DNA of 64,000 nucleotides. It comes from Candidatus Aramenus sulfurataquae (GTDB lineage: Archaea; Thermoproteota; Thermoprotei_A; Sulfolobales; Sulfolobaceae). The notes beneath the pieces were generated by a model, which saw only the letters and a list, made by a program, of their open reading frames with translations, was not told the origin of the DNA and searched no databases. Numbering within the stretch: the stretch's first letter is position 1; each line of letters starts with the position of its first letter. The position numbers were made by a program, and so were the translations under genes. Shown here piece after piece: positions 30,613 to 58,501 of this stretch. The DNA is taken from the NCBI GenBank assembly GCA_000565255.1, contig ASRH01000002.1:62001-126000 (forward strand). Direction: 5' to 3'.

Positions 30613-30831
30613 ATGACTACATTAGATCTCAGAGGAAAATCCTGTGAGGAGTTTATCTTGGAGCTCTCAAAGTATCTTGTCACCCTTAAGCCAGGGGAGA
30701 GTATTCAAGTTATAGCGGACTCCGACAGGATCTTGTGCACTCACCAGCTACTTAAGAATGCCCCAAGGTACCTCTTCAAGGGCGATGTCGTAGAGGATCA
30801 CGCGGAAATAGCGATAAAAAGACTAAGATAA
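30613..30831 (+). CDS. TusA/SirA-like small protein without the CPxP motif
   Basis: A 72-residue protein with the TusA fold pattern: [33 protein letters not shown], and a final beta-strand. TusA sulfur carriers have Cys-Pro-x-Pro; here the sequence is SCEEF, so the cysteine is kept but both prolines are lost. Sulfur carriage is therefore uncertain. A second cysteine is in LCTHQLL. Its 3' end overlaps the converging membrane-protein gene by 9 bases. Confidence 0.7.
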
Positions 30832-32649
30832 GCAGATAGAGCTTTTTACCTTCCTTACATTTAGTCCCTTGCTTTGCAGCCAGTAAATAACATAAGGGGA
30901 GAACGACTCGTCAATCCCCATATCTGAAACGCTTATGCATGAATCCTTGCTTAACGTGCTTATGATCTGTTGGGAATTGCTTTCTATTAGGCCGAAGAGG
31001 TCCCTTAGTGCTTCCTTTTTAGACAAAATGTCCAAGACTTCGTTGACCTCGTCAATAGAAGCTAGGAACTCGCTGAACTTATCGTAAAGGCTCTTGGCGC
31101 TTTCTAGGCTTTTCTGTAGTTTATTTCTAGCATTCAAGATCTTTTCGACAAGGAAGGGAGGAAGAATCCCGTTTGTGCCTATGCTACTAATCTTCGTCAC
31201 TTCCGAGTCTATTACCTTGTTTATTTCCCTAGTTGCTGCCACTAGCTGGTTTACCTCGTAGAAGGTTACGTTATCTAGGTCTATTAAATTCAAGTCTCTT
31301 ACTAGCTTTAGCTTTAACTGAGTAATGGAGTTATCGTTAAGCTTGACTAGGATGTCTTTCTCTATCTCTATTAAGCACTTCATTCTATCAACTACTTCCC
31401 TATTTAGGAGAGCCTCGGAAGTCTCTAGCATCTTGTCTATGTTTTTGCTTAAAAGAAGGTTGAAATTTGTGCCAAATATTTGGTTTAAGCTTTTAGCTGT
31501 CTCGTTGAGACTCTTTACTGCGGAGTCAAGGCTTAAGCTTATCGAAGAGAATACACTATATACGTAGTCTACTCCACTGGAGTTGAGCGTGAACTTCCTC
31601 TCGCCTATAGATACCTCTCCTAAAGGCAAGTTAAGTTTCCTTAATTTCTTGGCCTTCTCGTTAAACTGTACGATGACTTTGAACAGCTCATCATCTATCT
31701 GCCTTTCTATTTCTTCTTTCTCCCTGCTGAACTTCAAGGATACTTCCTCAGTGCATTTCCTTTCGTTGCACTTGGATAGGTCGTTGTACAAAGAGGTTAA
31801 GAGGTCTAGGCTCTTTGAGGCTAATGAAGAAAGCCTCTCGTTGTCAACCTTGCTGAGCCTTTGCAGAGAAATAATGGCTTCCTCCATACTGCTGTTTAAA
31901 GAATTCCTCAACAGCTCAAACTCTGACCTTTCGATAGACCTTTTCTCTTGGAACTCCAGGATCATTGGTACTATGTTTATAGTTACAGCCAAGAAAGTGA
32001 CATCAATTACTTGGCTTACTGACAAGGAAGGCACAACGTAGTATAGGGCTACTGTAGGCAACGCGGCACCTATTGGGCTAAAGGCCTTCTTGAGCCCCAT
32101 TATTGCAGCTCCAGCTATGACAAGCGCTATCGCCAAGGAAATCCTGTAGATGGGAGGCTCTACGAAGTTTGGGTAGATCATCCAAATAACCAAGGGAAGC
32201 GACGATATTGAATTAATGAGTACGCTACGTTTCTCGGATATTCCAGCGAAAAGGAAAAGCGCCGACGCTGGAAAGGCTGTATATGCCACTATGCTATTTA
32301 TTCCTATGAAAGCTTGAAGGGACTTATACTTCAGCTCCACTATAACCGGTAACAAGATGCCAAGCACCACGAGGAGAAATACGTGCAAGTAACCTTGATA
32401 AAGGGCAAGTGCGTGCTGGGCAAGTGTGTTGTAAATCGTAGCGCTTACGTAGAGTACCGATATAAACGAGGTCATGAAGAACGGTATAACCACAGTTATT
32501 ATAACCGCGAAGGGCACTAGCGCATACTCGTACATCTGAGGGAGACCGAAATCCTTAACTAGTTCTATTGCCAAAAGGGAGTTCAATATAGCTAGGACTC
32601 CTCTCTCCAAATAGTCGTTGAACCTCTCGATGGTCACCTTAATTTTCAT
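30823..32649 (-). CDS. Large membrane protein with C-terminal coiled-coil cytoplasmic domain
   Basis: I start it at the internal ATG ([10 protein letters not shown], 32649); the frame extends to 32709. Residues ~15-235 hold about eight hydrophobic segments. From ~240 to the end the protein is soluble, strongly helical and coiled-coil-like ([33 protein letters not shown]). The layout resembles FUSC/aromatic-acid-exporter-type proteins, but I see no decisive motif, so the function is unknown. Monocistronic and divergent from superoxide dismutase. Confidence 0.65.
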
Positions 32650-36837: not shown

Positions 36838-36909
36838 TAGTAGGAGAGAAATATTAAGTTAGCTATCTTATAAACGATGATTTTTATATACTGAGTAAAT
36901 AAGGAAACA

Positions 36910-37677
36910 ATGCACGTTTCTCTGGTTTCCTATACTAAAGATGGCGAGCGCGTTGTAGCAATCGCGTCGAAGATGAGCAGGAGCAGGAAAGGTTGGAGGC
37001 ATCACGAGGAGACCATGACCGACGACGAGGTTGAGACGTGGATTCGCGACGCAATTCTTCACGGGTATTGGTCAGTCCTGGAACACAGTGTTTACACCTT
37101 CTCAATTGAGGGCATAAGTAGAGTAGCCTCTCACCAGCTCGTGAGGCATCGTATTGCTTCATACACTCAGATGAGCCATCGCTTCGCCAAGCCAGTTGAC
37201 GAGTACTATCAGCCTGTCACTCCGCCCTCTGCCGAGAAGAGGGAGAAGGAGCTTATAGAAAAGGCGTACAAAGAAGCTTATGAGCGTTACTACGAGCTGT
37301 TGTCTGCAGGCGTACCCGAGGAGGACGCCAGGTACGTGTTGCCCAACGGCGTCAACACAAACGTAGTAGTGACGATGAACGCTCGCGAGCTGTACAACTT
37401 TTTTGCGTTGAGAACCTGCTCCCGCGCTCAATGGGAGATTCGCGCAATTGCGTGGAAGATGCTCGAAGAAGTGCGGAAAGTTCACCCACGCCTTTTTAAG
37501 TACGCTGGACCCAACTGCGTCATACACGAGAACTTCGTACGCAACGACCCCGTCAGTTTGGACGACGTTATGTCTAGGAAGGTGGAGTTCATCTCGCAGA
37601 GGTGTATAGAAGGGGTACCAAGGGACGGAATTTCAAAGTGTGTAGTCAACTCGCGCTCGATACTTGAAAAAATATAA
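36910..37677 (+). CDS. thyX: Flavin-dependent thymidylate synthase ThyX
   Basis: Makes dTMP from dUMP with FAD and NADPH. The ThyX motif RHRxxSxxxxSxR is exact: Arg79-His80-Arg81, Ser84, Ser89, Arg91. A second signature is [19 protein letters not shown] near the C-terminal half. 255 residues. A TATA box (ttttatata) lies ~27 bases before the ATG. Codon use here is less AGG-rich than in neighbours, with many CGC/CGT arginines, which hints at a different history or expression. Confidence 0.96.
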
Positions 37678-48025: not shown

Positions 48026-48158
48026 TGCCACCGTGTGAGAGCTGAACTTTAGGCAATAACGGGGTGTTAGTTCAAGTTCAATCTCTTGTCGTTTTTTAAA
48101 TATAGCTGGAACAACCCAAATCGACGGGAAAATTTCTCTGCGAGATGTTACGGTAAAA

Positions 48159-48216
48159 TTTAAATAGAAAAACAGCCCGCTCTATTTTAGAGTATGCAAA
48201 CAATAATATCGGGCTG
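48159..48216 (+). promoter_or_regulatory. Promoter and inverted repeat upstream of the first pilin gene
   Basis: A TATA box TTTAAATA is at 48159-48166, which predicts a transcription start near 48188. An inverted repeat CAGCCCG (48173-48179) / CGGGCTG (48210-48216) spans that start point. Inside it lies a second one, CTCTA-ttt-TAGAG (~48180-48192). Together they suggest an operator at the start site or a structured leader of ~68 bases before the pilin ATG. Confidence 0.45.
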
Positions 48217-48265
48217 GTCTCTCCTGTACTTTGCACAATCTATTTCAGAGCGTACATGTCCCTAA
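48194..48265 (+). CDS. Possible 23-residue leader peptide overlapping the pilin start
   Basis: ATG at 48194, only ~6 bases after the predicted transcription start, opens MQTIISGWSLLYFAQSISER plus three codons and stops at 48265, ten bases into the pilin gene. Leaderless translation is common in Sulfolobales, so ribosomes could start here first and affect pilin translation. No family evidence; may be chance. Confidence 0.25.
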   Translation: MQTIISGWSLLYFAQSISERTCP

Positions 48266-48687
48266 AGACCAAGAAGTCTAAAAAGGGGATCTCAGGAGCA
48301 GTAACAGCTCTAATCCTAGTGATTGCTAGCGTAATCATAACCTTATCGGTAGTAGGATTTGCATTCGGTCTGTTCGGAGCGTTTGGTGGAACCCCACAAG
48401 TAACGCAAATAGGTACTGGGACAATAATCGTCAGCACTGGAGTAGCTACTTTCACTCTGCACAGCACCGGTAATGTGCAAATCGTTAGCGCTACTATAGT
48501 AGGAACTACTTACAGTGCTTCTTCGATAGTTGTTGGATCTAGTGGTAATACATTAACTGCTGGAGTCAATAGCGTTTCCATTACCTTTAGTGGCGCTGCT
48601 AATAATCTACAGCCAGGAGCCACTTACACAATAAGCTTAGGCTTATCTGATGGAACTACTGTTACAGTAGCTGTAGTAGCGCAGTAA
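48256..48687 (+). CDS. Type IV pilin with class III signal peptide
   Basis: A 143-residue prepilin. The basic leader KTKKSKKG ends at Gly11, and PibD-type cleavage is expected before Ile12-Ser13. A ~25-residue hydrophobic helix (VTALILVIASVIITLSVVGF) follows. The rest is a Ser/Thr/Gly-rich beta domain with no cysteine. This is the form of adhesive pilins (AapB-like) of Sulfolobales. No pilus ATPase or platform gene is adjacent, so assembly depends on machinery elsewhere. A T-rich stretch after the stop (ttccttttttaaataaattttt) is a likely terminator. Confidence 0.88.
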   Translation: MSLKTKKSKKGISGAVTALILVIASVIITLSVVGFAFGLFGAFGGTPQVTQIGTGTIIVSTGVATFTLHSTGNVQIVSATIVGTTYSASSIVVGSSGNTLTAGVNSVSITFSGAANNLQPGATYTISLGLSDGTTVTVAVVAQ

Positions 48688-48909
48688 TGATTAAAGTAAG
48701 TTCCTTTTTTAAATAAATTTTTCACATAGGGTTATTTTGATAATATTCTGTGTTTTCTTTTATTTGTTTATGATATATCTTAAAGCTAAATGACATTATA
48801 TTGCCTTTCCTAACCTAATTATTTATTTGCTCTTTAGTATCCGTACTAACTTAACCTTACTTCCAGTTTTAGTCAACTAAGATTATTACTCCTCTTAACT
48901 ACTCTACAT

Positions 48910-49600
48910 ATGTGCTATGATGTTAAATTTACAGCTAATGATCATTTATTTCTCACGCTGTATGTGGGGGTTTTTGTTGAATATCATGCCACAACCTACC
49001 TCTTATCCTCTAACGGCTCCGTAATTTCTAAATCTAATAATAGAAAAAGTTGTCAAGGTCTTCCCCAGTTCCACGTTTGCTTATAGCTTAACTGTTGTCT
49101 TTTTGAACTACTCAGAGATATCTCCTTCATCATACGTCTTAGACAATCTCTCTTGTCCTTCCACTTTCTTTTTCGTTAATTACCCCGGAGATAACGTGAT
49201 CCCTAGGAGTATAGTTCTTATGTTAGTTAACTACACCAATGGAACTTACGTTTATGAGGGATCTCAGAACATTCAAGGCGTTACATTAAAGTATTTCTAC
49301 TTCGTCAATTCGACGAGCGTTCCCTCTAAAATTGAGATCTTTCAATACTCTGTTACAGGAGAATTAGTGAGTAAGACTATGTATAAATTGATTTCCTCTA
49401 ATTTAATTAATCCAGATGTTACTTTGTATATCCCAAGTAACCTAACGCATGCTAAGACAATAAAGATAGTCTTTGAAGGCCCTGACTATTACCTTGGCGA
49501 ATACGTAGTTTCCTTTAATCTAATTGCAATTCCTACAATAATTTTCCTTAAGAGAAATTTTTTAGGTAAATTTTTACGCTTGACTTACATACATAGTTAA
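48910..49600 (+). pseudogene. Decayed exported glycoprotein gene (frameshift in an A5 run)
   Basis: Two overlapping frames together encode one secreted-type protein. Frame one, open from before 48910, reads ...VEYHATTYLLSSNGSVISKS. At 49044-49048 an AAAAA run shifts it into the frame ending at 49600 (VFPSSTFAYSLTVVFLNYSE onward). Removing one A joins them smoothly as SNNRKVVKVF. The product is rich in N-glycosylation sequons and ends with one membrane helix plus a basic tail (FLKRNFLGKFLR). No clean signal peptide remains at the 5' end. It resembles the intact gene at 52680 in layout and in the region around NGTYVYEG/YNGTEDGLYKY. Confidence 0.6.
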
Positions 49601-49603
49601 ATT

Positions 49604-51285
49604 ATGGAAAGAAGGACTTTACTGGAGATTCTTGTTGTTCTTTTGCTCTCAGCCATTACGCCTTTGATAGCTCTTCACAGCGTTTTCCTTCATGAAGGCT
49701 AGATCTTCCAAAGGAACTCTTACCCCGATTATTATCTAGACAACAAAACAGTGAACGCTTTCCTAACGTTTCCCGCAATAATAGATAACTCTTACGCCCC
49801 TCTCCTTCTCCTTCTTTAATTTAATTTCTCCTGAGACTTTTTATTGGCTTCAGTACCTTCTCTTTCCTTTCGCTCTAGCAGTTCCTTCTATGTATTGGGC
49901 TGTTAGACACTTTATTTACGAAATTCACAAGAAGGTAGACTACTGGAAAACGATGGCTATATCTTCAACCGCTGCCTTTCTCTACGCTGTTATGCCTACT
50001 GCCTACTATTTTAGTCGTTGGTCAAATTACGTTTTAGTCGTTGGTCAAATTACGCAGGTTTTTTACGTGTTTCTCCCAGCGCTAATAGCTGGAGTAGATT
50101 CCCTTGTGGCGTACAAGATTAACGTCAAGACTACCTTATTATTGGTATTCGTGGTTGCTGGCCAGCTCACTTTCTCTTTGCCTTACATTTTATCTGGAAA
50201 TTACCTAAGGTTACTACAACCCAATTCAGATACCTCAGAGCTACATAGAGGTAGCAAAGTTCCTAGAAAGTCACGCAATAGACAACGTGATTAATCTGGA
50301 TTTTCCACTTCTTTTGCCAAATCAATGCAATTCTCCTATTTCTTTCATCTCTCCAAAAACGAGGGCAAGTTGCTCAACACTCTGGGAGTTCAGTACGTAG
50401 TTGTTAACGCGGAAAACAAATCACTAATAAACTGCTTCACTGCTCAAGGGTTCTTAGTTGCTTTTAACGACTCCCAATACGTTATTTTTGAGAACCCAGA
50501 CTTTACGTATAATCTTACTTCTCCGTTCTATTTGCTTTTTGACTATCCTAACGCCAACCTCTCCTCCTTAAATACGTTCGTGAATTTGGCGCCAGCAGTT
50601 GTTAATATTAACAGCAGTTGGGTAGGAGGATACATAGGAAATTCCTACGCAGATTACCTAGTTTATAAAGCTATAAAGAGCGGATTAAAGCCTTTAACCT
50701 TTCATTTACAAAACCTCCCCTAAATCTACCAACTTTACTTATTCCTTTGTTGAAACGTCAAACAAAACAGAGATCTACTCGTTTTTCCCTGGAAGTGTTA
50801 TAAGCGTGGCAAGGCCGTCGTCTCTTCACTTAAGCTCCATTTACGGGGATTACGAAGTTGTCTTAGCGTTTATTTCCTATCCCGACAATAGAAGCTTTGT
50901 TGTAAGTAATGGGATCTACAACTTAAGCGTTAGCGCTTTTGGTCAAACTTCCCTAAAATTTGAATACTTAGGAAATATGTCATTCTCAGGCAATTTATTC
51001 TTGTATTATACTGTTAATTCCCCAGCTTACTTGTACCAGGTTTGGCTTATTCCTTTTAACTTAACGACGTTTTCTAATCGCTACCTAAACGTTACTACAG
51101 TGCCATCAAGCACGTCGCTTTTGGGCAGGGCAGTGCCAGTGAAGGGCGAAAATTACACCAACGAGGCAATAACCCTTAACGCTTTGAGCTTCTTCCTTGC
51201 CATGTTTGCAGAAAAGGGAGTAAGGGAATGGATTAGGAAAAGCGTTGGGCAAGTAAGGCTAAGGATAATAGGCAGGAACGTCTAA
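49604..51285 (+). pseudogene. Decayed large polytopic membrane protein (YfhO/GT-C-like layout)
   Basis: Pieces in several frames read in order as one protein. MERRTLLEILVVLLLSAIT starts at 49604 and is stopped by an in-frame TAG at 49700-49702 and a TAA at 49817. A frameshift near 49815 leads to FNLISPETFYWLQYLL and the 49890-50294 frame (four membrane helices). Another near 50205 leads to NPIQIPQSYIEVAKFLESH, another near 50320 to LLNTLGVQYVVVNAENKS, and another near 50700 to the last part, ending at 51285. The late LGVQYVVV...YVIFENP pattern is typical of YfhO-like and some GT-C membrane proteins. At least one nonsense and four frameshift changes make function unlikely. Confidence 0.7.
50009..50054 (+). 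repeat. 23-bp tandem duplication inside the decayed membrane-protein gene
   Basis: Two exact adjacent copies (50009-50031 and 50032-50054), each beginning TTTTAGTCGTTGG and ending AAATTACG. As 23 is not a multiple of three, the second copy is read in a different frame from the first (SRWSNY versus LVVGQIT). A recent slippage-type event. Confidence 0.9.
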
Positions 51286-51635
51286 GGTAATTCCATCGCT
51301 TGTTGCTAGTATCACGTAGTAGGTGTTGCCATGCGTGAATGACGCTCCAGAAGGTAGAGGAACTGTGACCTTGTTAAGCCCTGTCTTTAAAGGTATGTTT
51401 ACTGAAAGAGAGAGTCCTTCAACTTGTACAGAGGTTATGTTTGCTGGAACGTTGGGCATTATAGTAGCATTCAAGTAATATAAATTTCCCTCCTGAAAAA
51501 TTTGGCTTACTCCTCCGCTCACTTGAAACCTTTGTGCTAAAACTGCTCCAAAAGTCCAAAGAAATGCCCAACAATAACTAGCGTAATGACCACTGTGGCA
51601 ACAAAGATAATTAGCTCTATAGTCGGGTTATCCAT
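51259..51635 (-). pseudogene. Frameshifted pilin/archaellin-like gene
   Basis: The frame starting at ATG 51635 encodes MDNPTIELIIFVATVVITLV, a pilin-type N-terminal helix, but ends after 32 codons at 51537. One base inserted in the GGG run after codon VIV would restore GAFLWTFGAVLAQ. That joins the frame ending at 51259 (VSQIFQEGNLYYLNATIMPN...), which is a beta-rich domain like the C-terminus of the pilin at 48256. It lacks the usual basic leader before the cleavage site, so it could also be related to archaellum FlaF/FlaG proteins. Its 3' end overlaps the decayed membrane-protein gene by 27 bases, convergently. Confidence 0.6.
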
Positions 51636-51693
51636 GTCATCTTTTCTCGATTTCCTCAAAGAACATTATCGTAGCCTAATCTATAAAAGTTTG

Positions 51694-52679: not shown

Positions 52680-53396
52680 TTAACTATGTTTCCTGAACAG
52701 TAGTATAATCAAGATAGAAAAGAGGCCGACAAAGATTATTCCCTCTTCAATTTTCTTACCCAAATTGGAGTACAGGCTAGAGAGGTTAACCGAAATAGGC
52801 TTTATATGCACCACGTTAAGCTTAGGCAGCGTAGCGTTCGAAAAGAAGTTGCTTGTCCACAAACTTATTATTGATTTACTGAGGAGAGCGCCGTTGGCAA
52901 CGTCGTAGTCTACTTCCTTTACTACCACCCCAGAGGAGTTGAAGTAGAGTATTAACGTACTCTCTTCCTGTCCATTTAGCACAAGAGCTGATATACCTAC
53001 GTACTTGTAGAGCCCGTCTTCAGTGCCATTATATTGCAAGGAAGTGTTTCCATCCTTTATTGTCTTGCCCAACATTTCTGGATCTACGCGATATAGGAGG
53101 CCAAAGTCGGAAGGACTTTGTATCCCTACTGTCGAGGAAACAGTTGAGTTTTGAGTTGTGCTCACCACGGTTGAGTTCACTAAGTAGGAGCCGTTATTAT
53201 ACACTGCTAACACTTGCTGGATAATCACTATTTTATCTACCAGCGTTTTATTTTGATGGTAAATATATACAGTTTCGTTATATACTAAGAACTTCCCTGG
53301 CGTAACTGTATACGAAATAGACGCCGTGAAAAGTAAGGGAATTCCCAGAATTAAGGCAATCAACGCTGTGGCTAACTTTTTTCCCATCATTTCCAC
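52680..53396 (-). CDS. Exported glycoprotein with N- and C-terminal membrane helices
   Basis: A 238-residue surface protein. It has a basic start and signal helix (KKLATALIALILGIPLLFTA), an ectodomain rich in Asn-x-Ser/Thr sequons (NKT, NGS, NST, NSS, NAT), and a C-terminal membrane helix followed by FRKHS on the cytoplasmic side. No catalytic motif seen. It appears to be an intact relative of the decayed gene at 48910-49600 (same domain plan, similar YxNGxxxY...LVSK/LLSKS segments). Function unknown; membrane-anchored S-layer or pilus-associated protein is possible. Confidence 0.7.
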   Translation of the reverse strand: MEMMGKKLATALIALILGIPLLFTASISYTVTPGKFLVYNETVYIYHQNKTLVDKIVIIQQVLAVYNNGSYLVNSTVVSTTQNSTVSSTVGIQSPSDFGLLYRVDPEMLGKTIKDGNTSLQYNGTEDGLYKYVGISALVLNGQEESTLILYFNSSGVVVKEVDYDVANGALLSKSIISLWTSNFFSNATLPKLNVVHIKPISVNLSSLYSNLGKKIEEGIIFVGLFSILIILLFRKHS

Positions 53397-58075: not shown

Positions 58076-58501
58076 ATGGCGAAAGTAAAGCGTGGTCTAT
58101 CGAACGCCTTTTCCACCTTAATTCTGGCCATTACCTCGATAATTATAGCCATACTCCTGGTTGCGCTCTCCTTTGGCCTCTCAGGGGCAATATCCTCTAC
58201 CCCAGTAGTTACTCAGCTTGGTACAGCCTATATCTCTCCCACAGGGGATGGTCACTACGAACTAACGGTGACCTTCAAGGTTACGGGGGGAGGCGACCTC
58301 GTCTCCGTTTCCTTTGACAACCAGAACGTCACCTTTTACGAAAAGGGAAACGTCACTGCCCCTGTACTTTACACTGACGTGGACTCGCTTACCCTGTGCC
58401 TAGTTCCCACTACCGCTGTACCTCAAGGCATCTACGTGAACCTTGAGTTGGGCTTCAGCAACGGGGAGACGCTGCTCGTGACTGCAATTTATTTGAACTA
58501 G
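58076..58501 (+). CDS. Second type IV pilin-like protein with class III signal peptide
   Basis: A 141-residue prepilin: leader MAKVKRG with predicted cleavage after Gly7, then LSNAFSTLILAITSIIIAIL as the hydrophobic helix. The ectodomain is beta-rich, with two sequons (NVT) and one cysteine (LTLCLVP). It shares the helix plan and the STPVVTQLGTA segment with the 48256 pilin (GTPQVTQIGTG), so the two are paralogues. Preceded by two 18-bp direct repeats. No secretion ATPase nearby. Confidence 0.85.
   Translation: MAKVKRGLSNAFSTLILAITSIIIAILLVALSFGLSGAISSTPVVTQLGTAYISPTGDGHYELTVTFKVTGGGDLVSVSFDNQNVTFYEKGNVTAPVLYTDVDSLTLCLVPTTAVPQGIYVNLELGFSNGETLLVTAIYLN

Follow-up and report, generated by a model that had tools for sequence, protein, structure and literature searches.

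In the acidophilic archaeon Candidatus Aramenus sulfurataquae, fragments of a large membrane-protein gene lie beside pilin genes, which raises the question of whether this gene is truly broken, what its intact form does and why it was lost. We examined a stretch of 64,000 nucleotides (the window; G000:C2:62001-126000) of a 1.8-Mb draft genome in 46 contigs, using a sister genome of the same genus (G001) as the reference. Gene order is shared between the two, with most proteins being 93-99% identical, and the sister carries an intact 757-aa gene at exactly the syntenic spot where the window has fragments. Both flanking genes are broken too, so the decayed tract spans about 48.9-51.66 kb of the window and takes in three adjoining genes. 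The features of the locus are as follows:

48256..48687, plus strand: intact adhesive-pilus (Aap/PilA-type) pilin of 143 aa, assigned by phmmer to solved pili
48920..49600, plus strand: broken gene for a secreted single-anchor protein of ~215 aa (the partner family), intact in the sister
49604..51285, plus strand: broken member of the 757-aa family of polytopic membrane proteins, from its lesions relative to the intact sister gene
51259..51662, minus strand: broken convergent pilin gene (132 aa in the sister), from DNA alignment to the sister
52680..53396, minus strand: intact 238-aa paralogue of the 215-aa partner, with no lesion and a dN/dS of 0.17
58076..58501, plus strand: further intact pilin of 141 aa

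An earlier note, made from the DNA letters alone, had placed the gene at 49604-51285, and its start, end and strand (plus) proved correct. Upon DNA alignment of the window copy to the intact 757-aa sister gene, we observe the following lesions:

49700..49702, plus strand: nonsense TAG, where the sister has TGG (W33, codon 33)
49715..49717, plus strand: D38 changed to N, at an acidic site otherwise invariant (10 homologues)
after 49742/49745: in-frame deletion of 3 bp
after 49813: frameshifting deletion of 5 bp
50009..50054, plus strand: both copies of a frameshifting 23-bp tandem duplication, the added 23 bp being 50009-50031
50059: +1 bp frameshift
50098..50099, plus strand: deletion junction, with 612 bp lost (sister codons ~160-364)
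50206: +1 bp frameshift
after 50350: -1 bp frameshift
50717: +1 bp frameshift
50721-50723: TAA stop, a result of the change of frame after 50717
51064-51066: in-frame insertion of 3 bp

In total, 49604-51285 holds six frameshifting indels, one nonsense substitution, two in-frame 3-bp indels and the 612-bp deletion, which agrees with the one TAG, one TAA and at least four frameshifts read previously. The six pieces that had been joined into one polytopic protein do belong to one membrane-protein gene, but they fall short of the whole protein because the internal deletion removes the codons listed above. No second functional copy was found elsewhere in the G000 genome. Given an intact syntenic orthologue in the sister and several independent disabling lesions, we are practically certain that 49604-51285 is a genuine pseudogene belonging to the 757-aa family of Sulfolobaceae.

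We next considered the family to which it belonged. Intact homologues (n = 16, ~757-809 aa) were found in 16 of 31 Sulfolobaceae genomes, all in single copy, whereas the search of 166 further genomes from the same order gave none; across this set the family is confined to Sulfolobaceae. An Aap/PilA pilin lies within about 5 kb of the family gene in 16/16 intact genomes, and the ~215-220-aa partner was detected in all of them; within the family Sulfolobaceae, the window genome and G002, the latter 79% complete, are the only ones that have the partner without an intact large gene. Intact orthologues beside pilins, proposed in the earlier note as a check, are thus present in the sister and 15 other genomes, and this linkage supports its suggestion that the gene was the lost partner of the adjoining pilin system. 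Neither Pfam nor NCBIfam matched the family, a PDB sequence/profile search gave no relevant match, and a search for related loci returned the HS-7 homologue only, with nothing in viral contigs. The 757-aa family is undescribed and unannotated in databases. The neighbouring pilin at 48256, by contrast with these blank searches, has a class III signal peptide and is homologous to solved Aap pilins (phmmer, 8TIB at 2e-23; also 8FJS, 6NAV, 6W8X and 8Q30), making it a clear member of the Aap/PilA adhesive pilus system of Sulfolobaceae (8TIB, 6NAV, 6W8X, 8Q30). Solved pili of this pilin family come from S. islandicus, S. solfataricus and S. acidocaldarius. PMC11178815 names aapX, aapE, aapF, aapA and aapB as genes of the Aap machinery, and neither the 757-aa nor the 215-aa family is among them.

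Pilus glycosylation differs among these three species. The pili of S. islandicus and S. solfataricus carry O-glycans, and the S. islandicus pilin showed no N-glycans (PMC7347861, PMC11178852), whereas the Aap pilus of S. acidocaldarius is N-glycosylated, with no evidence of O-glycans (PMC11178815). The family gene lies beside the S. solfataricus-type pilin of G014, which is near-identical to the S. solfataricus pilin (the 8FJS/6W8X sequence), and is absent from G015, which is S. acidocaldarius (AapB 100% identical). We know of no enzyme that O-glycosylates the S. solfataricus pilus. Where the family gene is present, pilin heads are high in Ser/Thr and contain 0-1 N-sequons (16/16), whereas most genomes without it have 2-5 N-sequons in their pilin heads; G003, G008 and G002 are exceptions, with few sequons and no family gene. 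Family presence is associated with both properties in genome-level tests (sequons, p-value = 3e-5; Ser/Thr, p-value = 6e-4), but lineage-level tests of the same correlation are not significant (sequons, p-value = 0.18; Ser/Thr, p-value = 0.11). As an observation in its own right, Sulfolobaceae adhesive pilins seem to be of two kinds, one rich in N-sequons (G015, G007) and one Ser/Thr-rich and sequon-poor (the 16 family genomes).

In bacterial type IV pili, the membrane transferases TfpO/PilO and TfpW are encoded beside the pilin that they modify. The likeness of the 757-aa family to these is a function-level analogy only, based on genomic linkage and the sequon and Ser/Thr correlation, and the family differs in being archaeal, restricted to Sulfolobaceae and accompanied by a dedicated ~220-aa partner. 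With AglB/STT3 (GT-C) it shares a similar size and order of parts, namely a polytopic N-terminal half, an acidic first outer loop and an outer C-terminal domain, but it is anchored in the membrane at its C-terminus, its outer domain differs, and its consensus lacks the WWDYG present in AglB. In its number of helices, too, the family resembles GT-C oligosaccharyltransferases. The invariant features of the family are RDxxP after the first helix, TDPRGF, QLW.NY and a PTY..E motif. D38, in an RD.YP-type motif of the first outer loop, is invariant in 10/10 homologues and aligns to the DPW of AglB, supplying the conserved acidic first-loop residue of GT-C enzymes, and we infer from the sequence that it is catalytic.

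A local HMM-HMM comparison of the family with AglB gave a weak match (score 39, P = 0.0016, probability 16%) that depends on the AglB set chosen and vanishes with a Sulfolobaceae-only set. The match is colinear, placing RDSYP on DPW and TTTDPRGF on WdWGGY, and all controls (12 block-shuffled nulls, reversed alignments and an amino-acid permease) scored at most 30.2. A Pfam scan of the family gave no STT3 hit, and the same profile also misses the true AglB of the genus; the loss of AglB in the genus that the Pfam STT3 search had suggested is false, since G000 and G001 each have an intact AglB gene, separate from the family gene. Members of the YfhO family are polytopic, proposed to be GT-C-like, and have an outer domain. 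The earlier note had likened the protein to YfhO/GT-C proteins, and of this pairing the GT-C part is plausible and suggestive given the AglB match, whereas YfhO (PF09586), although likewise polytopic with an outer domain, was rejected: four intact homologues had no Pfam match at E <= 1, and a search of the genome itself found none at the locus. A single-sequence AlphaFold model of the HS-7 homologue (low confidence, pLDDT 36) has a large beta-rich outer domain and a C-terminal anchor; a four-row model of the ~220-aa partner reached pLDDT 39, and neither model was good enough to judge a fold. Architecture and the weak AglB profile match together suggest that the intact protein is a GT-C-type pilus glycosyltransferase or oligosaccharyltransferase, the best single explanation and one that we hold with moderate confidence.

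Under such a function, about 11-13 membrane helices of the 757-aa protein would form a sugar-lipid site, and the first outer loop would supply the acidic catalytic residue (RD38SYP); the beta-rich outer domain, with its single anchor at the C-terminus, would engage the pilin together with the secreted ~220-aa partner, and O-glycans would be attached to the Ser/Thr-rich pilin head before or during assembly of the pilus. Having lost the module, with one divergent pilin left at the site, the window species would be expected to make a pilus without this coat. More tentatively, the family, acting together with the ~220-aa partner, could be the O-glycosyltransferase still missing for archaeal pili, in which case the window lineage would be its natural knockout. 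A pilin-linked, single-copy, database-unannotated family is a specific candidate gene for pilus glycosylation, and the sister pair, one genome intact and one naturally broken, offers a ready comparison.

A gene that is broken as found, but whose intact family serves pilus assembly, anchoring or quality control without any glycosyl transfer, for example as a platform at the pilus base or a partner in export, would also suit the strict linkage with pilins and the secreted partner, the large beta-rich outer domain with its C-terminal anchor (in a low-confidence model) and the weakness of the GT-C similarity. We consider this possible but rather unlikely. S. acidocaldarius assembles Aap-type pilins without the family gene, pilins are present in other genomes that lack it, and the conserved acidic first loop and the TTTDPRGF motif look enzymatic. 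Additionally, S. islandicus pilins alone restored pili in a region-deleted strain (PMC7217056), a deletion that may or may not include the 757-aa gene.

Turning to the loss itself, the genes on either side of the glycosyltransferase candidate are also pseudogenes, and thus the whole module is gone. In the window copy of the 215-aa gene the reading frame runs 0 to 2 to 0 and the 3' end is shifted, and the convergent pilin at 51662-51259, whose sister counterpart matches archaeal pilins, has a 1-bp deletion, a changed ATG start codon and GG replaced by DD at the presumed prepilin-peptidase site. The three-gene module was lost in the window lineage after its split from the sister. The broken genes have dN/dS values of 0.24, 0.27 and 0.46 and an ordinary dS of 0.14-0.33, which points to late breakage: they were probably functional through much of the period after the split and failed later. 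Their pooled nonsynonymous/synonymous count ratio is 0.96 as compared to 0.35 in other genes (p-value = 1.6e-13), but does not differ from that of other fast surface genes (p-value = 0.56); the lesions, not the rates, therefore carry the pseudogene call.

The cause of the loss may be a relaxed need after the second pilin was lost, or selection by pilus-binding viruses, and the two are inseparable here. On the viral view, pili and their glycans are receptors, so breaking a pilin and its coat enzyme would give resistance, and loss driven by viruses, with the second pilin and the coat enzyme broken and the remaining pilin allele swapped, is compatible with either function of the family. S. islandicus has repeatedly evolved SSV resistance by deletion of the pilA1/pilA2 region (PMC7217056), and pilin glycans have been proposed to set virus host range (PMC7347861). 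The surviving pilin at 48256 is also unusually divergent, with a dS of 0.85 against about 0.2-0.3 in nearby genes, and is 67-68% identical to the sister pilin and 78% to a G005 pilin. Relaxed constraint accounts for the same lesions, however, and the sister keeps the module intact, leaving selection by viruses a doubtful explanation. Across 48050-48900, divergence from the sister is far greater in the intact pilin and in both of its flanks than in the adjacent genes, making a replacement of the pilin allele possible from the sequence, although the pilin tree is poorly resolved and does not establish it.

That the frameshifts are sequencing or assembly errors, as several 1-bp indels beside short homopolymers and a 46-contig draft could suggest, is highly improbable, since the 612-bp deletion, 23-bp duplication, 5-bp deletion and nonsense substitution are unlike homopolymer errors, conserved residues are changed in the window copy alone at 5 positions and in the sister copy alone at 1, and none of the 27 other window genes compared (10,514 codons, 31.5 kb of coding sequence) is frameshifted. 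The intact pilin at 48256 was left out of this indel scoring, its DNA alignment to the sister being too poor. The earlier reading of local decay rather than poor sequencing is thereby upheld, and its statement that the rest of the window has almost no lesions applies to these 27 genes but not to the two flanking genes.

Several minor observations were made beyond the module. An intact partner paralogue (52680-53396) survives near the broken 215-aa gene on the other strand. Paralogues of the ~220-aa partner also appear truncated or split at 5845-6351 of L045 (G017) and 9728-10401 of L042 (G021), a hint that proteins of this type have decayed more than once. Decay of a ThyX-like gene at 36877-37674 of the window was rejected, as the stop precedes an internal ATG. 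Finally, a 608-aa gene at 30826-32649 is 81% identical to its sister counterpart, far more diverged than its neighbours.
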